This document shows, piece after piece, positions 12,713 through 33,492 of a DNA stretch of 33,510 bases. Location of the stretch: positions 1-33,510 of the forward strand of contig JAJQDP010000021.1 of the NCBI GenBank assembly GCA_021202155.1, given 5' to 3'. The DNA comes from Oscillospiraceae bacterium (GTDB lineage: Bacteria; Bacillota; Clostridia; Oscillospirales; Ruminococcaceae). The notes beneath the pieces are model-generated. The model was not told where the DNA came from, ran no database searches, and worked only from the letters and a program-made list of their open reading frames with translations. The first letter of the stretch is position 1; each line of letters starts with the position of its first letter. The position numbers were made by a program, and so were the translations under genes.

Positions 12713-12729
12713 ATGTGTATGTGTGCATA

Positions 12730-12758: not shown

Positions 12759-12794
12759 CGGATTATAGATTTTTTACGAAAGGAACGTGATATT

Positions 12795-14549: not shown

Positions 14550-14578
14550 GTGACAAATTGGTTTTGATGTGCTATAAT
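14550..14578 (+). promoter_or_regulatory. Sigma-A promoter for the 14683 gene
   Basis: GTGACA (14550-14555), 17-bp spacer, TATAAT (14573-14578). The leader to the TTG at 14683 is about 98 bases. Confidence 0.68.
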
Positions 14579-17197: not shown

Positions 17198-17238
17198 ATT
17201 ATATCATCCAGGACACTTCCCCCGTAGTTTCAGTTTTC
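17198..17238 (-). promoter_or_regulatory. CTACGG-type promoter A (zinc-ribbon unit)
   Basis: On the minus strand GAAAACTGAAACTACGG (17238-17222), then 18 bp, then TATAAT (17203-17198). The start codon is about 56 bp further on. The element takes the -35 position; no TTGACA-like box is present. Confidence 0.85.
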
Positions 17239-17243
17239 CCGAC

Positions 17244-17288
17244 AAAACGACAGCCGCTGGGGCTTTAAACCTCGGCGGCTTGTCGTTT
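17244..17288 (-). terminator. Terminator of the 28-17 kb kinase operon
   Basis: Downstream of the stop at 17341, minus-strand AACGACAAGCCGC pairs with GCGGCTGTCGTT (about 17287-17246) and TTTTG follows. It sits immediately upstream of promoter A. Confidence 0.65.
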
Positions 17289-17340
17289 ATTCAGAAAGAA
17301 AACACGCATCCGGTGGGAAGCCGGAGGTGGGAACTATCTA

Positions 17341-19860
17341 TCATTCACTACTTACCCTGACTACTTCAACCTTGGTGAGGTTAGCATAGCTTTCGTCTCT
17401 ACCTGCCCACCAGTTCAAAACAACACCATTTTTAACATCGCAGTCTGCTTCTTCAAAAGCTTCTTTTATGTCCACAAGCGATACAGTTATTACTCCGCTT
17501 TCAGATACAGTAAGATATTCTCCACTCGGTGTAGGGCGATCTAAGGCTCCTATAACGAAATCGAAATTCGACCACTCAAACGGAGTTATTCCTACCGGTC
17601 CCCAACCGATATAATCATCATCGATAAGGTCATAGTAGATGTACAAGTATAGTTCCGGGTCGGAGAAGTCGTAATCCTGCAAGAAATCAAGCAACCCAGT
17701 TTCAGTCATTTTTTCGCTGTATAACACCGTTGTAGTAACTACCTTTGCTTTCTCAGTCGTGGTAGGAGTTGTGGTAGTAGCCGCAGTTGTAGTTGTCGCT
17801 GCGGTTGTGGTAGTGGCTGGCGTCGTGGTTGTCGCCTTTGTCGTCGTGGTCGCGGGCGTGGTGGTTGTAGCCTTAGTTGTGGTTGTGGCGGGTGTGGTGG
17901 TCGTAGCTTCTGTTGTTGTAGTCGTGGGAGTGGTGACGGTGGTAGTTGTGGTGGTCACGGCGGGCTCAGTTTCCTTGACGAGCAAGCCGTAAGAATTCAC
18001 ATATGTCACCTCATCCTCGCTGATGCCGCAACCGTAAAACATGCTATCACTATATGTGACATTGGTCGCGAAATCGCTCGAAACTATTAGCTCTTGGAGG
18101 GACGTGCAGTCGTAAAACATGCGGGTCATGTCGGTTACATTGGCGGTGTCAAACTCTCTCAGATCAAGCGAAGTGAGTGCCTTGCAGTCATAGAACATGC
18201 TGTCCATCGATGTAACGTTACTGGTGTCGAAGGTGCTGAGGTCAAGCTCCATGAGGGATTCACAGCGGGAGAACATGCCGGACATGTCGGTGACACTGCC
18301 GGTGTCGAGCTGGCTTACATCCACCATCTCAAGAGACGAACAGCTCTCAAACATGCTTGCCATGTCGCTGACGCTGGAGGTGTCGATGTAGCCAAAATCG
18401 ACGCTCTTGAGCGATTCACAGCCCAAGAACAACCCGTACATGTCTGTGACGCCCGACGTGTCAAGACTGCCGAAGTCGACCGATTCGAGCGAGGTATAGT
18501 CCCAGAAGAGCTCATACATGCTTTCGTCCGCAATAACTCCGCCGTCTGCGGCTATGTAAAGGTGACCGTCAATAACCCACGCGAGGACGCTTCCGTCGTC
18601 TTCAAGCGAGAAGTCCCACGCTTCATCCGGGGCGGCATCGGTGAAATTGAGGAAGCTTATCCCGGTGATGTCTTTACTTTCGTAGTAGTTGTTGCTTCTT
18701 ATAAGGCTGTTGTCAAGGATTCGGGAAGAACTCAGCTCGTCGACAGCTATTATTTCGTCTTCTTCTGTCGGGTCAACTGGCTCGGAATCATCCCTCAGGA
18801 CAAGCCAGTAGACAAGCAGAACGGCGGCTATAGCTATAATGCCTGATACTATTGCTATAGTGATTATCAGGGCGGTATGATCTTTCTTTACGGGTATTGT
18901 CTCCTGCTTCTCACTATAGAAGTCGTTTCCGAACTCTTCCACCGACTGATACCTGTCCGCTCTCCTGACGGCGAGAGCCTTCATCAGGGCTTTTTCCTGC
19001 TGAGGGGTGAGGTTCGCACCGTACTTGTTCGGGAAAACTATCTCGTCCTCGGTGATTCGGTCGGTCGCTCTTGGCGGGGCGACGCCGGTGAGGCAATAGT
19101 AGATGGAAGCCGCCAGGGCATAGACGTCCGTCCAGGGTCCCTGACCCTTGTATTGATACTGCTCAAGGGGCGCGTAGCCGTGCTTAAGAGTGATTGTCTG
19201 GGTTTCAGAGCCGGCGGAGATGTCCTTCGCACAGCCGAAGTCAAGGAGCTTGATGCTCCCGTTTTCAATCATCAGGTTGTCCGGGCTGATGTCGCGATGG
19301 ATGAGCCCGAGCTCGTGCATCCGCTTCAACGCCTCGAACATCGGCTTTATCATCGGGAGGAGCTCCGAGGCGGGAATCTTCCCTCCCCTTTCGGCGGTCA
19401 ACGCCTTAAGGGTCGTGCCCTCGACATACTCCATGACGATGTAGGCGGTGTTATTCTCCTCGAAATAGTCCCTGACAGCCACGATATGCGGCTGGCGGTC
19501 AAGGAGAGCCATCGTCTTTGCTTCACGGATGAATTTTTCCTTGCCGCGCAGGAAGCTGTCCCGGCTCGCAGAAACGCTGTAGACCTCCGGAGATACGGAC
19601 GAGGTTCTTGCGGCGTTGCCGGTGGGATAGTACTCCTTGATGGCGATTTTAAGCCCAAGCTTGAGTTCCCGCCCGACATAAGTTATGCCGAAGCCACCCT
19701 CACCAAGGACTCGCCCGACAAGGTATCTCCCCTGCAGAACAGTCCCCGGCAAAAGCTGGTGCGGCGCGGAAACATAGTTCCCTTCATTCAAGCCGCAAGG
19801 GCAAGACCCATCAGCACCCAATGGAGACATACAATATTTGCAAAACTTCAATTCGTCCAC
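17341..19860 (-). CDS. Receptor-like Ser/Thr protein kinase with DUF285 repeats and C-terminal beta module
   Basis: An 839-residue transmembrane kinase. Order: degenerate zinc ribbon (Cys7, Cys10, Cys20, Cys22), Hanks-type kinase domain about 46-315 (Gly loop GEGGFG, Lys75, HRD 188-190, DFG 207-209, GYAPLEQY activation-segment end), short linker, membrane helix 329-354, then an ectodomain with four or five BspA/DUF285-type leucine-rich repeats (443-612, unit like FDTSNVTSMDSMFYDC), a Thr-rich linker (636-702) and a 130-residue C-terminal beta-rich module (706-839) resembling carbohydrate-binding modules. The kinase faces the cytoplasm and the repeats face outside. The catalytic loop is HRDISPDN, Ser for the usual Lys. 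GTG start (19860) with GGGAG nine bases upstream. Last gene of a long operon. Confidence 0.92.
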   Translation of the reverse strand: MDELKFCKYCMSPLGADGSCPCGLNEGNYVSAPHQLLPGTVLQGRYLVGRVLGEGGFGITYVGRELKLGLKIAIKEYYPTGNAARTSSVSPEVYSVSASRDSFLRGKEKFIREAKTMALLDRQPHIVAVRDYFEENNTAYIVMEYVEGTTLKALTAERGGKIPASELLPMIKPMFEALKRMHELGLIHRDISPDNLMIENGSIKLLDFGCAKDISAGSETQTITLKHGYAPLEQYQYKGQGPWTDVYALAASIYYCLTGVAPPRATDRITEDEIVFPNKYGANLTPQQEKALMKALAVRRADRYQSVEEFGNDFYSEKQETIPVKKDHTALIITIAIVSGIIAIAAVLLVYWLVLRDDSEPVDPTEEDEIIAVDELSSSRILDNSLIRSNNYYESKDITGISFLNFTDAAPDEAWDFSLEDDGSVLAWVIDGHLYIAADGGVIADESMYELFWDYTSLESVDFGSLDTSGVTDMYGLFLGCESLKSVDFGYIDTSSVSDMASMFESCSSLEMVDVSQLDTGSVTDMSGMFSRCESLMELDLSTFDTSNVTSMDSMFYDCKALTSLDLREFDTANVTDMTRMFYDCTSLQELIVSSDFATNVTYSDSMFYGCGISEDEVTYVNSYGLLVKETEPAVTTTTTTVTTPTTTTTEATTTTPATTTTKATTTTPATTTTKATTTTPATTTTAATTTTAATTTTPTTTEKAKVVTTTVLYSEKMTETGLLDFLQDYDFSDPELYLYIYYDLIDDDYIGWGPVGITPFEWSNFDFVIGALDRPTPSGEYLTVSESGVITVSLVDIKEAFEEADCDVKNGVVLNWWAGRDESYANLTKVEVVRVSSE
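17755..17955 (-). repeat. Thr-rich tandem coding repeat in kinase ectodomain
   Basis: Residues 636-702 are blocks of TTTT alternating with PA, KA, EA or AA (unit KATTTTPATTTT). The DNA is a degenerate GT-rich tandem array on the plus strand and likely varies in copy number between strains. Confidence 0.85.
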
Positions 19861-19880
19861 GTAGCTCCGCTCCCTATTAT

Positions 19881-22800
19881 TTACTGCAATTCGACTAATG
19901 CCACCTTATAGACTCCGTCCTCGTCCGCAAGCTTGTTCCCAGTGTAGAAGAAAAAGCCGTCGGAAACGCTCCAACCGAGCTCTTCTGCTCTTGATTTAAG
20001 AACCGTCAAAGGAACATAAATATAACCGGAATCACTATATGTCAGGTGGTATACCTGCGCATTATCGCCATTCTCATCTCCGACATAGATAACCCCAACC
20101 TCATAGCCTTCGGTGGCTCTCTTCTCGTCGTAGTAGATGCAGAGATACAGGTTTTCGTCCGAGAATTCGACGTCGTTTTCATCCAAAATGCTGAGCTCCA
20201 GGTCATACCAATTAGACTCGGCGACTGTTAAGAAGTCACCGCTTATTTCAGAATCAAACATCTCTACCGTTACAGTAACCTTTGAATCAGGCATGACAAA
20301 CGAGTACGTATACCGAAGAGTATCCGCCCAGACATCGGTCGTGCCCCTTTCAAAGGCGACTGCCGTCACCTCAAGGGCATTACCGTCACTATCCGTGACG
20401 GTAAGCTCCTTAAGCTGATATTCGTATGTTGAAGTAATTTCAAGCTCGACAACCTCGCCAGCAACAGTACTACTGTAGCTGACGTTTGCTTCCCCTCCGA
20501 CAACCTCAGTGTCGACACGGGAAACTACCTCAAAGCTCTTGAACACCGTGCCTTCGTCGCACTGGACGCTGACAGTGTTTATGTCATAGATACTATATCC
20601 GTTTCGCTCGATAGCGTCCAAGAGGTCGGCGCATGAGATGGAATAGGTATACGTGCCGTCGTCGTTGACTGTGACGGTTATGATGGGCTCGCTTTCCTCA
20701 TAGTCGTATACAGTATGAAGGACAAGCCAGGCGTAGCCATCATTTCTGAATCTGACAAAGAGCATAAATTCATCAGGAAGATCATAGGAGGTAATTTCAA
20801 GGTAGGTGTTCTCTCCTGTCACTGCCGCGACGAACTCCCTCCAGAGATCGCCCCATTCGTGCATGAAAACTGCATTTCCAAGAAGGAACTGTCCATCCAT
20901 TTCGGTATACTGCTCGCCGGCGGTGAGACCGTCAATAGCTCTGACTGTGAGGCGGTTGCCGTACTGGTCCACAACCCCGTCGGTTTCGGTCAATACCCAC
21001 GGATATGAGACCTCGGCTTCGTCCATCACGACGTTATAGACCTCAATCCTGACTACATCATCGACGGAGAAATCGTAGTCGCCGATAACATGCGCTTCAA
21101 GATTTGTAACACGTCCGACAATTGATGATTCATATCCTTCTACCTCAATCGTCGCTGATTTGCTTATTATAAGCTCATCATTGACGTAAACATTGTATCT
21201 GAAGGTCGCACCCTCGTCCATGGACATGACGTTGCCGATTACGATTTCAAAGCCATCAAGTGCTCTTATATTGTCAATACCATACGGGCTATACATCAGA
21301 TCCTGAATTGTAAATTCAAGCTCTAAATTACCGATTCCCGAGTCATCACCTGTGTACCAGACATTCCAATCCTCGGTATACCCACGAACACATACTATCC
21401 AGTGGTTGGTTATTGGGGAGGATTCAAAAACCTCTGTAGCGGTTTCGACCTCTTGTTCAATTCCGGAATTGATGTCGGCGATTTCTTCTGCCTCTGCTTC
21501 TGTGCTACCCACTCTGTACGTCACCGAGATAAGCGAGAACTCTCCGCTTTCGGCGGCGTTTACGAGGGCTATGTGGGCGATGGGTTTGGTGGGGTCAAGG
21601 GTGAGACTCAGGCTTGTACCGAAAGTATAGCCGGTGTCTGCGGTGTTGCCGACGGTGGTGCCGTCAGCGTAGGTCACTTCAAGCTTGAGGGTGTACATAT
21701 CGGAGAAGTAGATTTTTATGTATTCAAGGTAAACCTCGTCCGTGAAATCCCAGCCGATGGCTGAATAGCTGGCATCATAGGTAATGGTTCTGGTGTAGGC
21801 GTCGTAGCTCACTTCGCCTTCCTGATATGTTCCTATGCTAACTCCTTCAATCGGAAGCCAGTTCTCTGTTGAATAGCCTGACTGTCCGCCGGAATTTTCA
21901 CCGCTCCCCGTCCCGACTACTGCGAAAACTATGCCCACAGCGGCGAGGACGATGACTATTATGATGGCTATGACGGCTATGATGAGAGGCTTTTTGGAGG
22001 GTTTGGACTCTTCTTCGGGAGCGGGTCTGTCCTCGGTGGAGTCGTTGACCTGGGCTTCGGTGATGGCGACGTCGTCGGTGACAGGGGCTGTCACGCTGAA
22101 TGGTGTCGCTGGTTCCATAGCCTGCTCCGAGGTCGGCTCCTCCGGGACTTCCGGAGTCTCAAAAAGCCGCTCTCGGACGGTCTTTTCCATGCCGGTGAGC
22201 TTTTTATCTCTTTTTCTGCGGACTGCGGGAGTCGGCGCGCGTTTCACCGGCTTTTCGGGAGTTTGAACCGCCTCCGCAGTTGTGGTTTCGGTGTTGTAGA
22301 GTGCGCCGTAGAACTCCTTCATCGTCTTGAAGCGGTCGGCGGGTCTCACGGCAAGAGCCTTCATAAGGGCGTCCTCCTGCCGGTCGTTAATCTTGACACC
22401 AAGCTTGTGCGGAGGAGTGATGTTGTCCTCCATGATTCTGTCGGTCGAGCGCGGAGGAGCGTTGCCGGTGAGGCAGTAGTATATCGACGCGCCAAAGGCA
22501 TAGACATCCGTCCACGGTCCCTGATAACTGCTCATCTGATACTGCTCAAAGGGCGAGTAGCCATGCTTTAAGATAAGCGTCTGGGTCTGCTGGTTGACTT
22601 GCGTGCTGTCGGTGACGTCCTTGGCACAGCCGAAATCAAGAAGCTTGATGTCGCCGTTTTCGAGCATGAGATTATCGGGGCTGATGTCCCGGTGAATGAG
22701 CCCCAAGGCGTGCATATGGTGAATCGCGCCGAACATCGGCTTAATCATATCGAAAAGCTCGTCCGCGGGAATCCTGCCGCCGCGTTGCTTGGTGAGCTCC

Positions 22801-23258
22801 TTGAGGGTTGTCCCCTCGATGTACTCCATGACGATATAGGCGGTGTTGTTCTCCTGGAAGTAGTCCTTGACGCTGACAATATGCGGGTCTTTTTCGAGCT
22901 TTCCCATCGTCCTTGCTTCCTGCAGGAACTTGGACTTGCCCTTCTCATAGGTGCCGGTTGTCCTTGATGAACTACTCACCGTTATCGACTCAAGATTGTT
23001 TCTTGCGGCGTTTCCGACGGGATAGTATTCCTTGACGGCGATTTTGACGCCGAGACGGGTGTCACGTCCGACATAGGTGATTCCGAATCCTCCCTCGCCA
23101 AGGACTCTGCCGATAAGGTATCTGTCCTGGAGAACCGTCCCCGGGAGGAGGTGATGCGGCGCAGGGACATAGCTTCCCTCCGTCAATCCGCAGGCGGGAC
23201 AAACCCCGTTCTCGTTGACAGGTGTCATACAGTATGGACAATATCTCGTTTCATCCAT
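19881..23258 (-). CDS. Receptor-like Ser/Thr protein kinase with 675-residue ectodomain
   Basis: An 1125-residue transmembrane kinase. Zinc ribbon Cys7-x2-Cys10, Cys20-x2-Cys23; kinase domain about 47-320 with GEGGFG, Lys76, HRDISPDN (189-196), DFG 208-210 and GYSPFEQY; a 100-residue basic then acidic linker (325-422); membrane helix 424-447; then the ectodomain. Within it, about 470-585 is a beta-sandwich of carbohydrate-binding type (TRTITYDASYSAIGWDF); 590-950 is beta-rich and unassigned; about 958-1012 is a bacterial repeat module (YSFVMPDSKVTVTVEMF); 1013-1125 matches the C-terminal module of the next kinase (YLCIYYD against YLYIYYD). ATG with AAAGGAG nine bases upstream. It lies 20 bp upstream of its sister kinase in the same operon. 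Confidence 0.92.
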   Translation of the reverse strand: MDETRYCPYCMTPVNENGVCPACGLTEGSYVPAPHHLLPGTVLQDRYLIGRVLGEGGFGITYVGRDTRLGVKIAVKEYYPVGNAARNNLESITVSSSSRTTGTYEKGKSKFLQEARTMGKLEKDPHIVSVKDYFQENNTAYIVMEYIEGTTLKELTKQRGGRIPADELFDMIKPMFGAIHHMHALGLIHRDISPDNLMLENGDIKLLDFGCAKDVTDSTQVNQQTQTLILKHGYSPFEQYQMSSYQGPWTDVYAFGASIYYCLTGNAPPRSTDRIMEDNITPPHKLGVKINDRQEDALMKALAVRPADRFKTMKEFYGALYNTETTTAEAVQTPEKPVKRAPTPAVRRKRDKKLTGMEKTVRERLFETPEVPEEPTSEQAMEPATPFSVTAPVTDDVAITEAQVNDSTEDRPAPEEESKPSKKPLIIAVIAIIIVIVLAAVGIVFAVVGTGSGENSGGQSGYSTENWLPIEGVSIGTYQEGEVSYDAYTRTITYDASYSAIGWDFTDEVYLEYIKIYFSDMYTLKLEVTYADGTTVGNTADTGYTFGTSLSLTLDPTKPIAHIALVNAAESGEFSLISVTYRVGSTEAEAEEIADINSGIEQEVETATEVFESSPITNHWIVCVRGYTEDWNVWYTGDDSGIGNLELEFTIQDLMYSPYGIDNIRALDGFEIVIGNVMSMDEGATFRYNVYVNDELIISKSATIEVEGYESSIVGRVTNLEAHVIGDYDFSVDDVVRIEVYNVVMDEAEVSYPWVLTETDGVVDQYGNRLTVRAIDGLTAGEQYTEMDGQFLLGNAVFMHEWGDLWREFVAAVTGENTYLEITSYDLPDEFMLFVRFRNDGYAWLVLHTVYDYEESEPIITVTVNDDGTYTYSISCADLLDAIERNGYSIYDINTVSVQCDEGTVFKSFEVVSRVDTEVVGGEANVSYSSTVAGEVVELEITSTYEYQLKELTVTDSDGNALEVTAVAFERGTTDVWADTLRYTYSFVMPDSKVTVTVEMFDSEISGDFLTVAESNWYDLELSILDENDVEFSDENLYLCIYYDEKRATEGYEVGVIYVGDENGDNAQVYHLTYSDSGYIYVPLTVLKSRAEELGWSVSDGFFFYTGNKLADEDGVYKVALVELQ

Positions 23259-23328
23259 TTGAATCTGCTCCTTTGGGAATATTTATGGTTTCTGTAATCA
23301 TTCAAGACTGCTTCCTGTAAATCACACG

Positions 23329-23358
23329 CCCAAGCCGAGGGGTAGCCCTCAGCTTGGG
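23329..23358 (-). other. Intergenic hairpin between two kinase genes
   Basis: CCCAAGC-C-GAGG (23329-23340) pairs with CCTC-A-GCTTGGG (23347-23358), one mismatch, loop of six. On the minus strand no T run follows, so it looks like an RNA stability or processing hairpin, or a weak attenuator, inside a 123-bp gap. Confidence 0.55.
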
Positions 23359-23381
23359 GTTATATAGAATCAGCCCTTCCA

Positions 23382-24665
23382 CTATTGACCGTTCTTGTAA
23401 ATTCTATAGGAGAAGAAGATTGTACCCACTATGCCGACGATTGCGAATATCAAGCCAGCACCCACTTCGCCCGCCATCAGTGCGACGCCGAGTATAAACA
23501 GCACTGCGCACACTACCACAAATACGAGGTTCAGCGATGTTCTTGACGAATTGGTGCCGCCATTAATCTGACCGCCAATCTGACTTCCGCCATTCTGAGT
23601 GCCATTATGTCCGTTAATCCCGGTGCCTGTTTCTGTTTCGTCCTTGCCGGGGATAACTATCGTATCGCTACCGTTATCGGTGGTGTGACCATCATCATGC
23701 TCTCCGATTATGACGGTTTCGTGATGATCGTCAATCGGCGGTGGCGGTGGTGGAGGCGGCGGAGCGATAGGTTTGTCGTTCCACGGGAATTCCTTGATGA
23801 ACATACCCATCGTTCTGTATCTCGGGTTCTTTCCGGGAGTTTTAGCCGTCGGAGGCTGGACTGCAAGTCCGCGTAAGAGAACCACCTGCTGTCTCTCGGT
23901 GAGACCTGCGCCATACTGGTTAGGCGGGACTATCGGGTCGTCGTCAAGGCGGTTGATTGCCGCCGGCGGAACCTTGCCCGTAAGGCAATAGTAGAGCGTG
24001 GCGCAAGCACCGTAAACGTCGGTATATGTTCCCTGTCCGTGGCTCTGGTACTGCTCGATGGGAGCGAAGCCAGGCTTCAATAGCACCGTCATCGATTTAC
24101 CGTTCTCAACCGAACGCGCACTTCCGAAGTCGATGAGCTTGAGTCTGCCGTCGGTGGTAAGCATTATGTTGTCGGGTGCAATGTCTCTGTGCAGGAGTCC
24201 GATTGAGCTGTGCATCTTGTCGATGTCCTCAAGGAGAACCTTAAATTTCGGAAGAAACTCCTCCGCCTTGACTACTCCCTCTGTTCTGAGGAGATTCTTT
24301 AACGATATTCCCTCGATGAACTCCATAACGAGATAAGCCGTTCCATTTGCCTGGAAGTAGCTCAGTGCCTCGACTACCGACGAAATATTCCGAAGCTTCG
24401 CCAGTGATTTAGCCTCATCAAGGAAGCTCTGCATACCGCCCTGGAAAAGCCGTTCGTTTCCCTGGGTCGGCTGCACCGAGCCGTCCTGGCTTCTTTGCAT
24501 GTTGAGCTGTCTCGGGAAATACTCCTTGATGGCAACATGCTTGCCATCACTGCGGTGTGCGCTATAGGTGATTCCAAAGCCACCCTGACCCTTGACGTCG
24601 TCTATTGTATAGCTGTAATCCCAGTTCTCTAACTTGTAGTATACCGGCAATGTTTCATTATACAT
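23382..24665 (-). CDS. Membrane-anchored Ser/Thr protein kinase with C-terminal membrane hairpin
   Basis: A 427-residue kinase without zinc ribbon. Kinase domain about 18-295: GQGGFG (Gly loop), Lys47, HRDIAPDN (159-166), DFG 179-181, GFAPIEQY. A run of nine Pro (302-310), a linker rich in His, Asp, Gly and Asn (311-375), then two membrane helices (about 380-396 and 401-420) with almost no exterior part. The linker holds HHETVIIGE and SDTIVIPG, two TxxI motifs of the type FHA domains bind when Thr is phosphorylated. ATG with GGGAGG seven bases upstream. It has no receptor domain, so it is probably driven by the other kinases or by a partner protein. Confidence 0.93.
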   Translation of the reverse strand: MYNETLPVYYKLENWDYSYTIDDVKGQGGFGITYSAHRSDGKHVAIKEYFPRQLNMQRSQDGSVQPTQGNERLFQGGMQSFLDEAKSLAKLRNISSVVEALSYFQANGTAYLVMEFIEGISLKNLLRTEGVVKAEEFLPKFKVLLEDIDKMHSSIGLLHRDIAPDNIMLTTDGRLKLIDFGSARSVENGKSMTVLLKPGFAPIEQYQSHGQGTYTDVYGACATLYYCLTGKVPPAAINRLDDDPIVPPNQYGAGLTERQQVVLLRGLAVQPPTAKTPGKNPRYRTMGMFIKEFPWNDKPIAPPPPPPPPPIDDHHETVIIGEHDDGHTTDNGSDTIVIPGKDETETGTGINGHNGTQNGGSQIGGQINGGTNSSRTSLNLVFVVVCAVLFILGVALMAGEVGAGLIFAIVGIVGTIFFSYRIYKNGQ

Positions 24666-24715
24666 CCTGTCGCCTCCCTGCCCTGTAATCAGTGTTTTCT
24701 TTCATAGCCCGCTCC

Positions 24716-24799
24716 TTAGTCCGCGTCGGACATCATGGCGATGATGTCGTCAGCGGCGAGAGAAGTAAATATCGGGAGTAAACGCTTGAGCGCGTTCAT
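24716..24799 (-). CDS. Possible 27-residue small protein
   Basis: ATG at 24799 follows GGGAGG by 11 bases and lies two bases after the stop of the FHA protease gene. The frame reads MNALKRLLPIFTSL then AADDIIAMMSDAD and stops at 24716. It has a basic hydrophobic start and an acidic hydrophobic end, which suggests an amphipathic helix. It fills most of the 135-bp gap to the next kinase. It could be a real micro-protein or only a coupling leader. Confidence 0.4.
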   Translation of the reverse strand: MNALKRLLPIFTSLAADDIIAMMSDAD

Positions 24800-24800
24800 A

Positions 24801-26222: not shown

Positions 26223-26240
26223 AATTTGTACCTCCAAAAT

Positions 26241-26951
26241 TTAGTAAACCCACACAGCCGCGGCTGTGTTATTGTCGTTATCCTTAGGAACGCGCTCAAG
26301 AAGCCTTTTACGCATCCTTCTTACCCATTCGCCCGGAGTGGCGGAGTTCTTAAGATCAAGCTCCATCTCGTCCTCCAAAACATACTCCCAGAAGCCGTCC
26401 GAGCAGAGGAGAAACGCATACTTTTCGCCTTTCACGAGATCAAGCGAGCCGGTGTCAATTTTCAGCTCGTCATCCTGACCGAGGGCGCGGAGGATTCTGC
26501 TCCTGTCCTCGTGGAACCTGATCTCCGCGGGCGTTATCTGTCCGAGATAAACTGCAAGCTGTGAAGCACTGTGGTCAAGAGTCTGGAATTCAAGCTTGTC
26601 GTTTTTGAAGCGATAGATTCTTGAATCGCCGCAGTGAGCCCAGACGCACTTGCCATGAGAATAGCAGAGCGCGGTGATGGTGCTCTTCATCTTGCACGCC
26701 GGGGACTGAAGCTTGCGGATTTCCTCGTGGGCTTTCTGGATGTTCGCGCAGAGCTCGTCTGCGTCAACTTTACCCGACCAGCCCTCCGAGACAATGTCCA
26801 CTGTCAGGCGTGAAGCGATGTCTCCTCCGCCGTGACCGCCCAAGCCGTCGGCAACAATGGCTAAGATGCCCTTGTCCTCAACCCGGATTCCGACAGAATC
26901 CTCGTTGCAGCTTCTTCCGCCGATTTCAGTGTAGCTTGCAGTTTTTATCAT
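26241..26951 (-). CDS. PP2C-family Ser/Thr protein phosphatase (soluble)
   Basis: A 236-residue cytoplasmic phosphatase with the PP2C metal-binding set: Asp18 (NEDS), Asp35-Gly36 (VADGLGGHGGG), Asp109 (HCGDSRIYR), Asp185 (CSDGFWE) and Asp226-Asn228 (DNDNNT). PP2C enzymes remove phosphate from Ser/Thr using two manganese or magnesium ions and reverse kinases such as those in this cluster. ATG with AAAGGAG eight bases upstream. It follows the membrane-bound PP2C by 30 bp and precedes the FHA protease by 18 bp, all one transcript. Compact size (about 240 residues) equals the usual catalytic domain of PrpC-type enzymes. Confidence 0.95.
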   Translation of the reverse strand: MIKTASYTEIGGRSCNEDSVGIRVEDKGILAIVADGLGGHGGGDIASRLTVDIVSEGWSGKVDADELCANIQKAHEEIRKLQSPACKMKSTITALCYSHGKCVWAHCGDSRIYRFKNDKLEFQTLDHSASQLAVYLGQITPAEIRFHEDRSRILRALGQDDELKIDTGSLDLVKGEKYAFLLCSDGFWEYVLEDEMELDLKNSATPGEWVRRMRKRLLERVPKDNDNNTAAAVWVY

Positions 26952-26981
26952 CGTGATTTCTCCTTTGAATGTTTGCCATTA

Positions 26982-28031
26982 TCAGACCGCCAGAACAACA
27001 GCAGTATAGTTGTCCTGGTTGGAATATGCCTTTGCGGCAACCGCCTTGCCGAGAGCGTCGGCAACTTCCTCTGCGGTTTTTACGCCTGAGATGCAGGAAA
27101 CAAGTTCCTCCTGGGTGAGTGCGTTATAAACACCATCACTCATTAAAATATACTTGTCCCGGGCTTTGATGTCAAGTGCCGTTGCGGGCATATCGACATA
27201 TTTTAAGTCGCCCATTCCGAAAAAGCTGGTTAAACCGGAAGCATCCTTCGATTTGAATGCGTCGTCGACAGTGCCTGTTCCGTTGACGGCTTTGAGCTCT
27301 AAGTCGTGGCGATAGACGTGCTCGCGGTTGAGCTGGATGAGAGAGTTGTCGCGCCAGAGATAGATTCTTGAGTCACCGATGCTGAACCACATGAACTTGC
27401 CCTGTCTTATGAGACCGGCAACCATTGTTGAGCCGCTCTTATAGAGCTTCGCAGGACCGAGCATCTTGTTTACAGCCTTGTTGGTCTCTGCAACTATCTT
27501 CCACATGAGGGGCTCGAACTTCTCGCCGGAATTTGCAACGAATGTGTTGAGAGCGGTTTCGACCGCCTTCTGTGAGACCTTGTCGCCGTCCTCAAGACCG
27601 CCCATTCCGTCGGCTACTACCGCTAAGACTCCCATTCCGCTTGCCGCGTCAGGGGGCGAGACGGTGAAGCTGTCCTGCTGGGCGTTTCTCTTGCCCTGGT
27701 CGTGGAGCTTTCCAACCTGTGGAATTGCGAGATATGTTTTCGCTTCCAATTCCTTCTTCTTTCGCTCCTCCTTGGCTTTCTTCTCATTCTGATTCCTGAG
27801 TACAATGCAGACGACAAGTCCGACTATCACGAGTGCGAACACCACGCAGACGACTATCAGGACTATCATGCCGACATTGACGGAGGTTGCCTCGGTAGTT
27901 GTATCCTCACCGTCAGCCGACACCCCGATTGTCAGGGTGCCGACCATGAGCATGAGTGCCACAAGGAGAATCAGAAGCCTTTTCAAGCGAATATGCTTCA
28001 AGCAAGTATGCTTTTTTAGTACTCCTGCCAT
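26982..28031 (-). CDS. Membrane-anchored PP2C-family phosphatase
   Basis: A 349-residue protein. Residues 18-38 form a signal-peptide-like helix, 39-53 a short Thr-rich outside loop, 54-78 a membrane helix, 80-97 a strongly charged stalk, and about 105-349 a PP2C domain with Asp120, Asp141 (VADGMGG), Asp220 (GDSRIYL), Asp299 (MSDGVY) and Asp340 (QDNYT). The phosphatase faces the cytoplasm at the membrane, placing it beside the membrane kinases. It begins one base after the stop of the FHA zinc-ribbon gene, so the two are translationally coupled. Two PP2Cs in one operon, one soluble and one tethered, suggest separate substrate pools. Confidence 0.93.
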   Translation of the reverse strand: MAGVLKKHTCLKHIRLKRLLILLVALMLMVGTLTIGVSADGEDTTTEATSVNVGMIVLIVVCVVFALVIVGLVVCIVLRNQNEKKAKEERKKKELEAKTYLAIPQVGKLHDQGKRNAQQDSFTVSPPDAASGMGVLAVVADGMGGLEDGDKVSQKAVETALNTFVANSGEKFEPLMWKIVAETNKAVNKMLGPAKLYKSGSTMVAGLIRQGKFMWFSIGDSRIYLWRDNSLIQLNREHVYRHDLELKAVNGTGTVDDAFKSKDASGLTSFFGMGDLKYVDMPATALDIKARDKYILMSDGVYNALTQEELVSCISGVKTAEEVADALGKAVAAKAYSNQDNYTAVVLAV

Positions 28032-28032
28032 A

Positions 28033-28746
28033 TCAGTCTACCTTATCCTCGCCCTGCTTCCAGGAGAAGTGCTCACTGCAAAGCGGAACGAACAGAAGCT
28101 TGGTGGTTCCTACCTCGATAATATCGTATGCCTTGATCTTGGTGGCGTTGTAAACCTCCTCGTTGTTGAGATATACGATATTTCTTCCGTCGGAAGGACC
28201 GAAAACGAACGTATTGCTGCGAGCTGAGTAAGCGATCATCGCGTGCTTCTCGCGGGAAATCTGAAGGTCGTTTGAGATGTGGATGTCGCCGATTTCGCGT
28301 CCGATGTAGTTGTAGCCGGCATGGATTCTGAAATCTGTGCCTTTCTCAGGACCGTCGATACAGACGAGCCATCCGCAGACAGGGTCGATAACACTGTCAT
28401 AGGTGCTGTTCCTGTTGTCATCCGGGGGTGCCATGGTGGTGGGAGGGAATGCCTCAGCCTCGCTTGAGACAGGACTGCTGAAGTTGACCGGAACTGTTCC
28501 GCCCATGCCCTCAACATAGCCGCCGCCTGCGCTTACTCCGCCAGCCGGAGGAGCAGTAGGTCCGAAGGGATCTCCAGTAGCCGATACACCGCCAACTCCG
28601 CCGCTTACGACGTTAGGAGCAGTAGTGGTTCCGAATGAGCTCGCACTCGCACCAGCACCGCCACAGCTTGGGCAGGTTGCATGAGCAGCCGCATCATAGT
28701 AATTTCCGCAAGACGGACACCTTGTTAATTTGTTCTGAACTTCCAT
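28033..28746 (-). CDS. Zinc-ribbon FHA-domain protein
   Basis: A 237-residue soluble protein: zinc ribbon Cys10-x2-Cys13 and Cys25-x2-Cys28; a Gly/Ser/Pro/Ala-rich linker (30-110); FHA domain about 128-222 with GREIG (150-154), SREKH (165-169) and YLNNEEV (193-199). FHA domains bind phosphothreonine peptides, so this is an adaptor for kinase products. The linker segment AFPPTTMAPPD contains Thr pairs that could be phosphorylated and bound by the own FHA, as in GarA/OdhI proteins (inference). First gene of the long operon from promoter B; ATG with AGGAGG upstream. Confidence 0.9.
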   Translation of the reverse strand: MEVQNKLTRCPSCGNYYDAAAHATCPSCGGAGASASSFGTTTAPNVVSGGVGGVSATGDPFGPTAPPAGGVSAGGGYVEGMGGTVPVNFSSPVSSEAEAFPPTTMAPPDDNRNSTYDSVIDPVCGWLVCIDGPEKGTDFRIHAGYNYIGREIGDIHISNDLQISREKHAMIAYSARSNTFVFGPSDGRNIVYLNNEEVYNATKIKAYDIIEVGTTKLLFVPLCSEHFSWKQGEDKVD

Positions 28747-28852
28747 TATAGTTTCCTCCTGAATAGAATTATTTTTTATTTCAGCTCTCAGGCTTATCTC
28801 AGCCCCAAGAGCTCAAAAACAGGTTTCCGAGATGAATTTCTCGTATGTTTGT

Positions 28853-28893
28853 ATTATACCAGCCTCAGTTCTGAAGCCGTAGTTTGGGTTTTC
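28853..28893 (-). promoter_or_regulatory. CTACGG-type promoter B (main kinase operon)
   Basis: Minus strand GAAAACCCAAACTACGG (28893-28877), 18 bp, TATAAT (28858-28853). The leader to the ATG at 28746 is about 100 bases. This promoter likely drives at least seven genes down to 17341. Confidence 0.88.
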
Positions 28894-28901
28894 GGGATGT
28901 A

Positions 28902-29516
28902 TCAGTTCTGCACCACTTCAAAAGTATTATTTCTCGTTCCCAGGTAGAAACGGGATCCGATGCCGAGGGAGACGGGGTTGTTGCGCATGAGTTGTCTACC
29001 GTCGTCAAGGAAGGTGCCGTAGGATGAGCCGAGGTCGACGAGCATGATGGCGTTACCCTGGCGGTATAGTCTGCAGTGGTTCGAGCTGACGCCCGATTCG
29101 CCGGCGGAAAATCTCACGCCGTTGGAGGCGTTTCTTCCGAACGTCAGACCGTTTCCAAGACCATAAACCCTTCCCTTGAGAGAGCCGGAAATCGCCATGA
29201 CTCCGACCGAGCCATACTGAGCGGGAGCAGTGCCGCCGTTATTGTTATTGTAGTAGACGACTCCGCCAGCCTGAGTGCCCTTGTTTCTTGAGATGGGTGC
29301 TGAGTCACGGGTGGAAACCATAATAGCGATTGTGAAGCCAATTGCTACGAATATGGAAAGTCCGATGATTCCGAACAGTCCGTCGAAAACTCCTGCAATC
29401 AAGCAACATACCATAGCAAGGGTTCCCATGTTATCTCTGCATCTTCCTCTTGCGATGAAGAATGGAATCAGACCGATTACCACACCTACAAGTATTCCAA
29501 TTAAAAGCCAAATCAT
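28902..29516 (-). CDS. Membrane FHA-domain protein
   Basis: A 204-residue protein with a membrane helix at 2-22, a second long hydrophobic region at about 31-67, an Asn/Gly linker (78-100) and a C-terminal FHA domain about 105-204 (FGRNAS 126-131, Ser144-Ser145, His147, DLGSSYGTF 161-169, FYLGTRN). It resembles the FHA units at 24801 and 29593 (shared S..HC and GS(S/T)YGT pattern). It acts as a membrane-located docking protein for phosphothreonine. ATG has GGAGG eight bases upstream. It has its own promoter C and no partner in the same transcript. Confidence 0.9.
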   Translation of the reverse strand: MIWLLIGILVGVVIGLIPFFIARGRCRDNMGTLAMVCCLIAGVFDGLFGIIGLSIFVAIGFTIAIMVSTRDSAPISRNKGTQAGGVVYYNNNNGGTAPAQYGSVGVMAISGSLKGRVYGLGNGLTFGRNASNGVRFSAGESGVSSNHCRLYRQGNAIMLVDLGSSYGTFLDDGRQLMRNNPVSLGIGSRFYLGTRNNTFEVVQN

Positions 29517-29553
29517 TTTATTTACCTCCGATTGATTTTTTTGTTATGTCTGA

Positions 29554-29594
29554 ATTATACTCTCTATGATTTTCAAGCCGTAGTTTCGGTTTTC
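29554..29594 (-). promoter_or_regulatory. CTACGG-type promoter C (membrane FHA gene)
   Basis: Minus strand GAAAACCGAAACTACGG (29594-29578), 18 bp, TATAAT (29559-29554). The element begins inside the stop codon of the upstream FHA gene (29593-29595). Leader about 38 bases. Confidence 0.88.
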
Positions 29595-30324
29595 ACTGCT
29601 TCCTTACAAGCTGGAACTTCTCGTACTCCGAGCCGAGCCAGAAGGTGTCGCCATAGTGAAGCTCAAAGGGCTGGTTGGCGGCAAGTCTTCCACCTACGAT
29701 GTATGTCCCGTAGGTTGAGCCGAGATCTGTAAGATAGATTCTTCCCTCGCGGACGATAATTTCGCAGTGGTAGCCGCTTATGCCCTGGGCGTTTACCGGA
29801 TAAACGATGTCGTTGCCGGGATTTCTTCCGAAACGAATCCTGTCGGTAAAGGCGAATCTCTTGCCGGTAAAGCATCCCCCGATGCCCTGAATCCTCGGCT
29901 TTGTGTCAGCCGCCGGCTTGGGCTGGGAATACTGAGGTTGAGGTTGCTGAACATACCTCTGAGGCTGTTGGTTCACAGGAGCTCCGCCATAAAGCGAGCG
30001 TGAGGTAGTTCCGTTGATCTTGGCTCCTGCTTCGTCAGTAACGATAATCAGGTCGGCGGCAAGAGCCGCAACTCCTGGCATATATCTGCTACGGCAGGTG
30101 ATCGTTCTGTCGGAGTAGACCTCAAGCCCTACCCGAATCTGCTTTGGAACTCCCCATATAGAGAAGGTCAGGTTGTGCATTCCCTCGGTCATCATCAGCT
30201 GAGCTGACCCTCCGTTTTTCAGTCGCACCGCTTCTTTCATTCCATCAATTTCGATTCGGATGTCGTTCGCCGAGCCGGAAAACGCCGATTCTCTCTTTAT
30301 GGTAACCATAAACTGCTGTGCCAT
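29593..30324 (-). CDS. FHA-domain protein with PEGA-like N-terminal domain
   Basis: A 243-residue soluble protein. Residues 1-80 form a small beta-rich domain of the type that begins VTIKRESAFSGS and carries an IDG turn and TEGMHNLTFSIWG, resembling PEGA-like folds. A Gln/Pro linker (115-142) leads to an FHA domain about 146-240 (FGRNPGND 165-172, Ser183, His186, DLGSTYGTYI 200-209). The FHA part is close to that of the protease fusion: both end RLAANQP then a GD..(F/Y)(Y/W)LGS segment. Likely a phosphothreonine adaptor. ATG at 30324 with GGGAG nine bases upstream; own promoter D. Confidence 0.9.
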   Translation of the reverse strand: MAQQFMVTIKRESAFSGSANDIRIEIDGMKEAVRLKNGGSAQLMMTEGMHNLTFSIWGVPKQIRVGLEVYSDRTITCRSRYMPGVAALAADLIIVTDEAGAKINGTTSRSLYGGAPVNQQPQRYVQQPQPQYSQPKPAADTKPRIQGIGGCFTGKRFAFTDRIRFGRNPGNDIVYPVNAQGISGYHCEIIVREGRIYLTDLGSTYGTYIVGGRLAANQPFELHYGDTFWLGSEYEKFQLVRKQ

Positions 30325-30393
30325 TTTAAGTAGCTCCCTTCAATCTGTTTTCTTTCTGAATCTGAATTAGCTGTCGAACTTTCGACATTTCCA

Positions 30394-30433
30394 AGTATAT
30401 CACGCACGTTTTCGCACCCGTAGTTTGGATTTA
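30394..30433 (-). promoter_or_regulatory. CTACGG-type promoter D (FHA gene)
   Basis: Minus strand TAAATCCAAACTACGG (30433-30418), 18 bp, TATACT (30399-30394). About 70 bases to the start codon at 30324. The element abuts the terminator at 30436-30464. Confidence 0.85.
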
Positions 30434-30435
30434 CA

Positions 30436-30464
30436 CAAAAAAAGGACGGCTTGAACCGTCCTTT
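30436..30464 (-). terminator. Terminator of the kinase-CvpA unit
   Basis: On the minus strand AAAGGACGG pairs with CCGTCCTTT across a five-to-six base loop, followed by a run of T (30443-30437). It ends the transcript of the two genes at 31763 and 30483. Confidence 0.9.
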
Positions 30465-30482
30465 GATGTCTGATTATATGCC

Positions 30483-31805
30483 TTATATACCGAAATAGCC
30501 GGCAAGCTGGTAGAAGTACCTGAACACAGCGGTGTTCCCGATGGTGTCCTCAATGATGGTGACAATATCGTTTCCGCCGAACAGAAGGATTCCAATGATG
30601 ACAATCCCGACGGCGACCGCCGCATAGCATAGCCAGACCGCTCCGCTCACGATACCCTCCACCGTGCCAAAGACCAAATCCAGCACATACGGCACGTGAA
30701 TGCCCTCTAAGAACCTGAATATCTTCATGATGAGGCTCATGAGGAATCGGAGAACCAGAACGAATATCAGGAACAGAACTATTTCGAGGCAGTAAACGAT
30801 AAGCGGCTGGAAGAGCTCCTGCTCTATCGTTTTGCTCAGCGAGAGTTCCATTACTTTTACTTTTCCATCGTTATCGTAGACTGGTTCGCCCTTCTTGATA
30901 TAGTCCCAGATCGCGCTGTCAAGTGCCGAATTTATAGTTTCCTCGTCAACAACGAGCTCAATACAGCTCATGATGCTATCAGGGGTGAATATATTGTTTC
31001 CGATGGTCATTTCGATGATCTTTGTCTCGACGTTCTCGCGTATCTGAGAGGCAATGTATGAATCGACAGATGTGTTTAGGATGCTCGTGAGTTCATTGCA
31101 AAGCTTGTCAAAGTTTTCGTAATTCGCAAGGCATTTCTTAAGCCAATTCTCCGCAAGAATCTCGGCATATCCGGTCAGGACACTATCATCCTTCTCCTCG
31201 GCAAACAGGTAGTTATACACGATGTAGCTCACGCTTGTGTCGCTTGTGCTGATTCCGAGGGCAGTGCAGTAATTCTCCCAGGTCTCGTTATTATCAGAGC
31301 CGGTAAGTTCGTCAGTCAATCCGAGCACCTCTGTAAAATACCCGATGAGAATTTCCGTTGCGTCATCTCCGACAGCACTTTTGACTGCGCTGACAAGCTC
31401 TTCTGAAGGGCTTGATTCCGCAACGGCATCGTCGATGGAATCCGTGACGATATTACTGATAATCCCGTCATAGATGACCGGCGTCAGTGCCTGGCTGGCG
31501 AAGATGCTCACAGCGAAAACAACTGCCAAAAGAACGGTTGAGAGCGTACCATAGAGGAAGCCGCGTTTGACTCCGACGAAAAGACCGATGAGAACCGCCG
31601 CAACGGTCACGAGGTCGACTATAAGAACGGGTATCGCCTGCTCCTTGTCAAGAATTACGACGGCAACAATTCCGGCAATCGTGAGAAGAACCGCAAGGAT
31701 AATGAGAACTGCCGAGCGTGAATGGTTATAGGGTGTCTGTGCGCCGCACTGGGCACAGCTTTTTACTCCTCGGCGGAGCTTGTATCCGCATTTTTCGCAA
31801 TACAT
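30483..31805 (-). CDS. Zinc-ribbon, CvpA-like membrane protein
   Basis: A 440-residue protein. A zinc ribbon (Cys3-x2-Cys6, Cys17-x2-Cys20) opens it, then membrane helices near 31-52, 57-76 and 84-108, a large region (110-320) predicted to lie outside, and more helices near 325-350, 375-395 and 398-415. The segment around 60-110 (GLFVGVKRGFLYGTLS) matches the CvpA family, first linked to colicin V production and purF regulation; the real role is unclear. It starts at the zinc ribbon Met 31805, overlapping the kinase 3' end by 43 bases in another frame. GAGGAAG precedes the ATG inside the kinase gene. Confidence 0.85.
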   Translation of the reverse strand: MYCEKCGYKLRRGVKSCAQCGAQTPYNHSRSAVLIILAVLLTIAGIVAVVILDKEQAIPVLIVDLVTVAAVLIGLFVGVKRGFLYGTLSTVLLAVVFAVSIFASQALTPVIYDGIISNIVTDSIDDAVAESSPSEELVSAVKSAVGDDATEILIGYFTEVLGLTDELTGSDNNETWENYCTALGISTSDTSVSYIVYNYLFAEEKDDSVLTGYAEILAENWLKKCLANYENFDKLCNELTSILNTSVDSYIASQIRENVETKIIEMTIGNNIFTPDSIMSCIELVVDEETINSALDSAIWDYIKKGEPVYDNDGKVKVMELSLSKTIEQELFQPLIVYCLEIVLFLIFVLVLRFLMSLIMKIFRFLEGIHVPYVLDLVFGTVEGIVSGAVWLCYAAVAVGIVIIGILLFGGNDIVTIIEDTIGNTAVFRYFYQLAGYFGI

Positions 31806-33289
31806 GCTTCTTCCTCACTTTCTTCGGTAGTTTCTATATGAGCCTCCGGCTCTTCTGCCTTGTTCTCAGGCTCTGAGACTGCCTCCTCCAGCTTGGGAGT
31901 TTCCTTCTCAGGCTCGGGCGGGAGAATCACGGAGACCATATTATCGGAAGAAGATACCGGCTGGTCGGTATCGCCGTCAAGCTTTTCCTCGAATGCCGGC
32001 ATGTCCTCGGGAGTGATTTCAGGAGTCTCAGCCTGCTTCTTCCTGCCAAATAGCTTGAGCTTCGGGAAGAGCTTGCGGTCATTCTCCGTCTTCGCAACCC
32101 ACTCGTTGACCGGCTTGCCACACCAGCGGCAATAGGCAGCGGTGTCGCCAATCTGCTTTTTGCAGGATGTGCAGTAACGCCTGATAGTCAAGCCCTCATA
32201 AAGACTTGAGTGGAACTCCTTCATCGACTGGAAACGGTCGGTGGGACGGACGCCGAGAGCGAGCATGATTGACTTCTCCTGCTGTTCGGTGATGTCGGCG
32301 TGGAGCTTTCTTGGAGGGATGATGCAGTCCTCGGAAATTCTGTCGACCGCCCTCTCGGGAATCTGACCGGTAAGGCAATAGTATATCGAAGCCGCAAAGG
32401 CGTAGACGTCTGTCCAGGGTCCCTGACCCTTTCGCTGATACTGCTCAAGAGGCGCGTAGCCGTGCTTTAAGGTTATTGTCTGCGTCTCGGAATTCTCGGA
32501 AACATCCCTCGCACAGCCGAAATCTATAAGCCTCAGCTTGCCGTTTTCAATCATCAGGTTGTCGGGACTTATGTCCCTGTGGATAAGACCGGCGTCGTGA
32601 ACCGTCTGGAGAGCCCCGAACATTGGCTCAAGCATGGCGAAAAGCTCCTTTGAAGGGATTCTTCCTCCCCTGAGCTCGGTCTGCTTCTTGAGGGTTGTGC
32701 CCTCGATATACTCCATAACGATGTAGGCGGAGTTGTTCTCCTCGAAATAATCTATAACAGAGACGACCTCGCTCTGCTTTATGAGGCGAGCCATGACCCG
32801 GGCTTCGTTCAGGAACTTCTCCTTGCCCTTTTCAAAGCTGTCGACAGCACCGGTGAAGCTTGAGACGTTCAGCGACATCGTCGACTGCCTCATCGAGAGC
32901 CCGACGGGGTAGTATTCCTTGATTGCGACCTTCATGTCAAGTGACATGTCACAGCCGATATATGTAATTCCAAAGCCGCCCTCACCAAGGACTCTACCGA
33001 CAAGGTACTGGTCCTTCAAAACAGTCCCAAGCGGGAGGTGGTGAACCGAGGGCTTGTATTCCTGAAACTTCGGCTTTTTGGCGCAGTCATCGCAAATTCT
33101 GATGCCAAACCCGCCCTCGACCTTTTTCATGCAGAAGGGACAGCGCGTGGCGCGCTTCACCGGCTTCTTTGTGTCAGTAACCGGGGTCTCCTCGACCACA
33201 GCTTTTTCAACTGGCACTTCCCTATGGATAGATTCAGCCCTTTCAGTCACAACATCGGACTTTATATTCTTTACGCTATCTTCAGTCAT
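31763..33289 (-). CDS. Soluble Ser/Thr protein kinase with two zinc ribbons
   Basis: About 508 residues. Numbering from the first Met: a charged N-terminus (1-45), zinc ribbon 1 (Cys51, 54, 67, 70), kinase domain about 96-366 with GEGGFG, Lys125, HRDISPDN (238-245), DFG 257-259 and GYAPLEQY; zinc ribbon 2 (Cys374, 377, 388, 391); a basic stretch (404-420); and an acidic Glu/Pro-rich tail. No membrane helix or ectodomain, so cytoplasmic. Start: two ATGs abut (33292 and 33289) after GGAGGG; the second gives the better spacing and is chosen. Its gene overlaps the CvpA-like gene and has promoter E. Confidence 0.92.
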   Translation of the reverse strand: MTEDSVKNIKSDVVTERAESIHREVPVEKAVVEETPVTDTKKPVKRATRCPFCMKKVEGGFGIRICDDCAKKPKFQEYKPSVHHLPLGTVLKDQYLVGRVLGEGGFGITYIGCDMSLDMKVAIKEYYPVGLSMRQSTMSLNVSSFTGAVDSFEKGKEKFLNEARVMARLIKQSEVVSVIDYFEENNSAYIVMEYIEGTTLKKQTELRGGRIPSKELFAMLEPMFGALQTVHDAGLIHRDISPDNLMIENGKLRLIDFGCARDVSENSETQTITLKHGYAPLEQYQRKGQGPWTDVYAFAASIYYCLTGQIPERAVDRISEDCIIPPRKLHADITEQQEKSIMLALGVRPTDRFQSMKEFHSSLYEGLTIRRYCTSCKKQIGDTAAYCRWCGKPVNEWVAKTENDRKLFPKLKLFGRKKQAETPEITPEDMPAFEEKLDGDTDQPVSSSDNMVSVILPPEPEKETPKLEEAVSEPENKAEEPEAHIETTEESEEEACIAKNADTSSAEE

Positions 33290-33338
33290 CATAACCCTCC
33301 AAACACAGCTACAGCCGCACTTTTAAGTTGATGCTATC

Positions 33339-33379
33339 ATTATAGCACGGTCGATTTCTGCGCCGTAGTTTGGATTTAC
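33339..33379 (-). promoter_or_regulatory. CTACGG-type promoter E (soluble kinase-CvpA unit)
   Basis: Minus strand GTAAATCCAAACTACGG (33379-33363), 18 bp, TATAAT (33344-33339). About 45 bases to the start codons. The element is next to the GC-rich repeat at the window end. Confidence 0.87.
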
Positions 33380-33380
33380 G

Positions 33381-33457
33381 TGACGCGCTTCGCGCAACGC
33401 GCCTCCTGCGGAGGCGACCCCTCCACCACGCTTCGCGTGGTCCCCCTCCCCCTTCGG
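33381..33457. repeat. Truncated cloverleaf repeat at the window end
   Basis: Hairpin GCGCCTCCTGCGGAGGCG (about 33399-33416), then ACCCCTCCACCACGCTTCGCGTGGTCCCCCTCCCCC, the left arm and centre of the family seen at 1647 and 3392. It breaks off at the 35-bp inverted repeat, as does the copy at the window start. Confidence 0.7.
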
Positions 33458-33492
33458 GGCATACGCGTACACTTAAGCGAAATTGGCAACAA
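33458..33492. repeat. Right copy of 35-bp terminal inverted repeat
   Basis: Exact reverse complement of 1-35, ending GGCAACAA. Eighteen more bases follow to the window end, so it is not simply the last base. Confidence 0.85.

Follow-up and report, generated by a model that had tools for sequence, protein, structure and literature searches.

Candidate activator sites at extended -10 promoters of a Ser/Thr kinase and FHA gene cluster in Oscillospiraceae

We analysed a stretch of 33,510 nucleotides from an Oscillospiraceae bacterium (assembly GCA_021202155.1, contig JAJQDP010000021.1), called the window below, which is the entire contig C9 of a 2,246,400-bp genome in 54 contigs. On its minus strand lies a cluster of genes for Ser/Thr kinases, FHA-domain proteins and PP2C phosphatases, and five promoters share an element at one distance from the -10 box. 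It is almost certain that this is a real promoter element specific to the cluster. It is probably the site of a dedicated activator, most likely the product of a linked gene that we call REG, at sigma-A extended -10 promoters that have no -35 box. REG is the best candidate because the element type follows the REG subtype across three cluster contexts. An activator in the -35 region that contacts RNA polymerase would fit because the spacing is fixed, a -35 box is missing and the -10 box is extended. The genomes compared are metagenome-assembled genomes (MAGs), and operon structure was deduced from gene spacing.

Anatomy and distribution of the promoter element

The initial annotation had reported CTACGG, 18 bp and TATAAT or TATACT at five places. 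All five sites are present on the minus strand (Table 1). CTACGG-N18-TATAMT is found exactly five times within the window, on this strand only, and it was absent from each of 100 dinucleotide-shuffled windows. AAACTACGG is exact at all five sites; the element proved to be longer than first reported, reaching to G-35, and spacer bases are also conserved. It consists of a 17-bp block (GWAAAYCNAAACTACGG), followed by 18 bp, mostly with TGn at the end, and a sigma-A-like -10 box. We call this form type 1.

Twenty-two type-1 promoters were aligned and numbered from the first base of the -10 box; positions above 0.5 bit are given, and the counts are on 18 promoters (two from G024, one from G030 and the single N19 site were omitted). 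The block has G-35, AAA at -33 to -31, Y-30, C-29 (14/18) and AAA at -27 to -25. Its core is CTAC at -24 to -21 (18/18), with G-20 in 16/18 and G-19 in 14/18, and AAACTACGG corresponds to -27 to -19. Conserved spacer bases are A at -13 to -11 (12, 16 and 15 promoters), Y-9, T-3 (15) and G-2 (14). Weaker A-rich positions and AT at 12/13 follow on the 3' side of the -10 box. The hexamer shows TA at the first two positions and T at the last in 43/43 tabulated sites, partly by construction as a -10-like box was used for collection; many sites were collected by pattern, so the pattern positions in these counts are no independent evidence. In the TGn before the -10 box, T is present in 17/22 and G in 16/22 type-1 promoters, both bases in 6/6 type-3 sites, and T in 13/15 and G in 12/15 type-2 sites (types 2 and 3 are described below). 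The exceptions are the FHA2 promoters, of which five of six end in GAG and one in TAG.

As the initial annotation had noted, there is no TTGACA-like -35 box at 16-18 bp, CTACGG matching TTGACA at 1/6 bases. Judged by its sequence, the type-1 promoter is a sigma-A extended -10 promoter in which the 17-bp block occupies the -35 place. An alternative sigma factor that uses CTACGG as its -35 and TATAAT as its -10, REG then being no more than a kinase partner or substrate, would also explain an element in the -35 position at fixed spacing, and the ten genomes checked carry 16-22 sigma-70 region 2 matches each. The type-2 sequence TTGGAC even resembles a -35 box (3/6 bases), though it lies 20-21 bp from the -10 box. 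We consider this explanation unlikely. The conserved block of 17 bp exceeds a -35 box, the -10 is that of a sigma-A extended -10 promoter, and the type-2 boxes drift as in activator-dependent promoters. The region 2 counts (numbers, not individual factors) are alike in the six type-1 genomes (16-22) and the other four (17-20, two of them with type-3 systems). Two things favour the earlier preference for an activator over a sigma factor: TGnTATAAT, and the linked protein family, whose predicted helix-turn-helix (HTH) is Cro/CI-like and whose subtype tracks the element.

Random placement in the genome was looked for. No further site in the own genome lies within one mismatch of AAACTACGG-N18-TATAAT: the five sites have 0-1 mismatch and the next best has 2. 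AAACTACGG alone has 15 copies genome-wide, and TATAMT follows at N17-19 in these five only, the other ten being without it. At up to three mismatches the pattern gave 57 matches, versus 70 for the reversed control. A further CTACGG-N18-TATAAT, the sixth in the genome, is on contig C46; it is without the AAA and lies antisense within a 335-aa open reading frame (ORF). A AAAWYYSAAACTACGG-N18-TATAMT scan of 84,980 species genomes, which may omit records of the window's own genome, gave matches in two only, a Ruminococcus sp. MAG (G002) and an Oscillospiraceae MAG (G027), both at the kinase cluster. A phage or mobile origin was also considered: 44 viral-contig stretches with one AAACTACGG-N18-TATAAT match each were taken as chance, the best of them scoring 16.4 on the type-1 matrix versus 24.5-57.6 for the matrix's own sites. 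No published form of the motif was met among the open-licence papers listed in literature searches, which were judged largely by title.

Among 31 genomes of the genus, type-1 sites are found at this cluster in six: six sites in G002, five each in the window and G027, and three each in G006, G024 and G030. The total is 25 promoters, with N18 in 24 and N19 in one. The initially suggested search of related genomes thus located the element at this cluster in five more species of the genus. The notion of one regulon is supported by the extended pattern GNAAAN4AACTACN20TATAMT, as all 14 zero-mismatch matches lie in this cluster in the six genomes, and there are none in the other 25 genus genomes. 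Identical N19 matches in G006, G014, G024 and G030 were discarded, since by eye they are the C-terminal coding end of one gene.

Most type-1 sites precede orthologous genes, and one G002 site stands before an extra FHA gene. The claim that each site drives a signalling gene is right for four sites, with one kinase gene and three genes of FHA type; the fifth site precedes an unclassified 207-aa ORF. The gene after this last site differs among three species. In the window it encodes the 207-aa protein, and in G002 its product has 621 aa and resembles the DUF285 repeats of the 17341 kinase. In G027 (L067:12006-13885) the site is followed by a gene for an 88-aa peptide and then by one for a radical SAM/SPASM enzyme. 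The G027 pair, from its sequence, resembles a small cassette for a modified peptide, appended to the kinase cluster. The enzyme also has a very weak JAB match (E 0.18).

In G006, G024 and G030 (clade B) the block is altered (AACTACAC, AACTACGA), and CTAC and the 18-bp distance are retained. This retention speaks against the view that the promoters were copied along with gene duplications and are alike by descent without function, as does the fact that the genes belong to different families and most spacers differ while the block is kept. Some copying is likely, three G002 promoters having near-identical spacers; as an account of the element it is extremely improbable.

REG and its linkage to Ser/Thr kinases

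In all type-1 genomes a convergent gene, REG, with a product of 434-442 aa, lies at the 3' end of the cluster. By profile, relatives of REG were detected in 13/31 genus genomes, 19/297 family genomes and 30/394 order genomes. We collected 36 REG neighbourhoods of 615,404 bp (loci of 16/19 family-level and 20/30 order-level genomes) and found a Ser/Thr kinase in 33, in L187 only at 29 bits. The kinase-less neighbourhoods are from G079, G436 and G590, and REG is near a contig end in the last two. A control of other genus-genome loci (288 kb, unmatched to the other families) has such kinases in three loci only, which are the cluster itself.

Profile comparison unites the REG proteins of type-1/3 and type-2 clusters, which are about 20% identical, in a single family (probability 94.9, E 4.2e-8, 287 columns). 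Models of two distant members, covering both subtypes, suggest an N-terminal Cro/CI-like HTH, placed at residues about 45-141 of REG. Matches of the models to RRNPP regulators (Rgg/ComR/PrgX/PlcR) nearly all span only residues about 36-117 or 45-141. The REG profile gave nothing relevant against the sequences of solved structures (best E 0.25), and the models gave nothing at E<=0.001 in a viral structure library.

Element type and REG subtype

In clusters with the other REG subtype, an FHA gene or the kinase operon is preceded by a type-2 element, GGAAAN4TTGGACN-N19/20-TANNAT. This element was first read from upstream regions and afterwards tested by genome search. GGAAANNNNTTGGACGN{17,20}TANNAT gave 8 matches in the 297 family genomes versus 3 for the reversed control: six at the cluster, one before a lipoprotein-like gene and one in coding sequence. 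GGAAAYNNNTTGGACN{18,20}TANNAT, which is blind to the N20 form, gave 10 matches versus 2 for the control in the 394 order genomes. Eight of these are in REG genomes (seven beside cluster genes, one before a secreted-looking gene), and the other two are inside ORFs of genomes without a REG match. Counted by genome, the GGAAAYNNNTTGGACN element is found in 5/30 with REG versus 2/364 without (Fisher P 3.5e-5, uncorrected for kinship). Type-2 matches of G116, G626 and G107 are inside ORFs and were taken as chance.

Type-2-like clusters with the upstream region covered have the element in 16/16 cases (G017, G028, G020, G022, G340, G044, G219, G126, G213, G281, G115, G391, G412, G089, G464 and G453), where REG of five order-level genomes was assigned by profile score and no tree. 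REG is on a separate contig in G028, only the kinase gene is seen in G022, and the clusters of G015 and G565 are cut by contig ends. Variants include ATGGAC in G464 and G453 (found with a loosened pattern), CCGGAC in G115 and TTCGAC in one G391 copy. G391, from another family, has four type-2 elements in one cluster (L298, L319), standing before three FHA genes, a window-like arrangement with the other element. Two further elements, L325:1501-1541 (G028) and L201:1501-1542 (G340), lie outside the cluster, each by eye before a secreted-looking or lipoprotein gene, and possibly mark outputs of the system.

Aligned by block, types 1 and 2 share G-35, AAA at -33 to -31 and AC at -22/-21 (N20 sites shifted by one). 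The type-2 distance to the -10 box is 19-20 in 15/15 tabulated sites, nearly the type-1 register, and the boxes drift (TACAAT, TAAAAT, TATGAT). Such near-fixed distances (for type 1, 18 in 24/25) make it very unlikely that REG binds as a repressor over the -35 region, as a repressor needs no fixed face and CTACGG is no -35 box. In favour of repression, phage CI-type repressors share the predicted fold and an extended -10 alone could drive the promoters.

The type-3 context comprises G029, G001 and a second G024 locus with a different kinase cluster. The best kinase pairs with the window reach 30% (G029) and 27% (G024), and REG is 55-59% identical. The promoters have type-1-like blocks, with matrix scores of 27.0 and 23.1 in G029 and 27.1 in G001; the maximum was 13.6 in a control of 89 loci scanned singly with six cluster loci removed (270,004 bp). 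The type-1 matrix is gapless, so N18 in the six type-3 sites is by construction. G017 is the converse case, with a kinase 58% identical to that of the window, a REG unalignable by BLAST and a type-2 element. As far as these sequences go, the element type follows the REG subtype and not kinase similarity across the three contexts.

This pattern, together with the predicted HTH in both REG subtypes, argues against an activator encoded elsewhere in the genome, with REG a kinase signalling partner that co-evolves with the cluster. Such an arrangement is rather unlikely, even though REG has no sequence-level match to a DNA-binding family and is nearly always near kinases, as expected of a substrate. 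We think it likely that REG reads the element. Several results weigh on the other side. No Pfam HTH family was matched at E<=1 by any of 23 REG members, and Foldseek with the REG models found nothing at E<=0.001. All Z values of the models are below 8, which according to the tool may mean a common arrangement only, and most of the alignment is common to both models. REG and the cluster are co-inherited, and from linkage alone REG is indistinguishable from a different linked regulator. Three G024 type-3 sites (TCACAG/TCACGG) score 9.2-12.5, which is below the highest control score, and were assigned only by their position and recurrence; directly after the G001 site no gene was recognised. Clade B orthologs of the 28746 and 17142 genes are without a recognisable element. 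Sixteen stretches around REG homologs of greater distance yielded no accepted element; two loose pattern matches in them (L187, L191) are inside ORFs.

G024 holds both a type-1 system (C20, L090; CTAC elements) and a type-3 system (C23, L220, L221; weak TCAC candidates), and these paralogous systems are a natural test of insulation. The type-3 cluster (L216-L221; G029, G001, G024) contains a PP2C-like gene, kinases, an FHA/ABC-fusion-like protein and many paralogous lipoproteins. A WXG100-like ORF was seen by eye upstream, near the G024 cluster.

Proposed mechanism, related systems and genes of the cluster

In the mechanism that we propose, REG would be transcribed from its own ordinary promoter (GTGACA-N17-TATAAT). 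Its predicted HTH would sit on GWAAAYCNAAACTACGG, which spans about -47 to -31 when the -10 box is numbered -12 to -7. There REG would touch RNA polymerase where sigma region 4 normally contacts DNA, which would set the fixed distance to the -10 box, and it would switch on the adjoining kinase, FHA and phosphatase genes. The linked kinases may in turn control REG by phosphorylation. We infer the binding by REG, its activating effect and its phosphorylation control, the last from the neighbourhood only.

More tentatively, and at somewhat less than even chances, REG and the element may together be a phospho-signalling system encoded at one locus, in which a dedicated transcription factor is acted on by Hanks-type kinases, PP2C phosphatases and FHA readers. 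The sequence recognised by this factor would vary by lineage (AAACTACGG, TTGGACG, TTCAC(A/G)G), and the factor would control the kinase cluster and a few variable output genes. If true, this would be a Ser/Thr counterpart of the two-component system in this order of Clostridia. Bacterial Ser/Thr kinases are described as being without dedicated transcription factors in a review (PMC6213207). The locus offers a defined pair of protein family and DNA element, of which the natural variants serve as specificity controls. The element is also a search handle for a wider regulon, as the two out-of-cluster type-2 elements precede secreted-looking genes.

Several Cro/CI-fold regulators activate promoters without a good -35 box. 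Cro/CI (XRE)-fold regulators including Rgg, ComR, PrgX and PlcR are like REG in the predicted N-terminal HTH fold; unlike this group, REG lacks a Pfam HTH match, its genes are beside Ser/Thr kinases, and a TPR peptide-binding part is unsupported. In class II activation at sigma-A extended -10 promoters, the activator site replaces the -35 box at fixed spacing before TGnTATAAT. The window promoters have the same layout, but their element is nearly confined to one gene cluster, is paired with a Pfam-less protein family and has a sequence not met in the open-licence papers. Hanks-type kinase signalling with transcription-factor targets (EmbR, WalR, MgrA) has kinases, PP2C phosphatases and FHA readers in common with the window, and transcription is a plausible output. 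In contrast to those cases, there is here a candidate dedicated factor whose linkage to kinase genes extends across an order. Type VII secretion variants T7SSc-j also include kinases, phosphatases and FHA proteins, some of them in Clostridia, according to one report (PMC11217815). The signalling proteins are similar to those of the window; an FtsK-type ATPase (EssC/EccC) and WXG100 were unmatched among 20 scanned window proteins, but the contig covers no more than 131 bp upstream of the first element.

Table 1. Promoter elements and genes of the kinase cluster in the window
Feature	Position	Strand	Remarks
Type-1 element and -10 box, first kinase gene	33339..33379	-	GTAAATCCAAACTACGG (33379-33363), N18, TATAAT (33344-33339)
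Type-1 element and -10 box, FHA gene 1	30394..30434	-	GTAAATCCAAACTACGG (30434-30418), N18, TATACT
Type-1 element and -10 box, FHA gene 2	29554..29594	-	GAAAACCGAAACTACGG (29594-29578), N18, TATAAT
Type-1 element and -10 box, zinc-ribbon/FHA-like gene	28853..28893	-	GAAAACCCAAACTACGG (28893-28877), N18, TATAAT
Type-1 element and -10 box, 3'-end gene	17198..17238	-	GAAAACTGAAACTACGG (17238-17222), N18, TATAAT
Ser/Thr kinase, 509 aa	31763..33292	-	Pkinase 3.2e-33
Zinc-ribbon protein with hydrophobic stretches, 440 aa	30483..31805	-	Overlaps kinase gene; no element of its own
FHA-domain protein 1, 243 aa	29593..30324	-	
FHA-domain protein 2, 204 aa	28902..29516	-	
Zinc-ribbon/FHA-like protein, 237 aa	28033..28746	-	Pfam matches weak, below cut-off
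PP2C phosphatase, 349 aa	26982..28031	-	
PP2C phosphatase, 236 aa	26241..26951	-	
Trypsin-like and FHA protein, 478 aa	24801..26237	-	
Ser/Thr kinase, 427 aa	23382..24665	-	
Ser/Thr kinase, 1125 aa	19881..23258	-	
Ser/Thr kinase with DUF285 repeats, 839 aa	17341..19860	-	
207-aa protein	16519..17142	-	No family match; after fifth element
REG, candidate activator, 436 aa	14683..15993	+	TTG start; convergent to cluster; no Pfam or NCBIfam match
Presumed ordinary REG promoter	14550..14578	+	GTGACA-N17-TATAAT read from sequence; similar upstream of five orthologs

The presumed leaders contain two conserved features, compared by eye. A palindrome, TGTCGAAAGTTCGACA, at 30372-30387 before FHA gene 1 is the same in G027 and has two changes in G002. 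A hairpin, CGAGAAATTCATCTCG, at 28828-28843 in the presumed leader of about 100 bases of the 28746 gene is the same in G027, and G002 retains the stem with a different loop. A known RNA element in the leaders was looked for, and an Rfam search of the window at the gathering threshold gave 0 matches. G+C-rich inverted repeats are found at 33380-33470, immediately upstream of the first element. By eye, similar repeats precede two G002 promoters, and with the three near-identical G002 spacers they possibly point to promoter copying.

The long C-terminal parts of the kinases at 17341-19860 and 19881-23258 vary among species, with DUF285 repeats and threonine-rich linkers, which gives the impression that parts for sensing or display have been swapped. 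The region 9430-14321, before REG, encodes two paralogous solute-binding proteins and a glucuronyl-esterase-like protein, homologs of which adjoin the cluster in G002 and G027.

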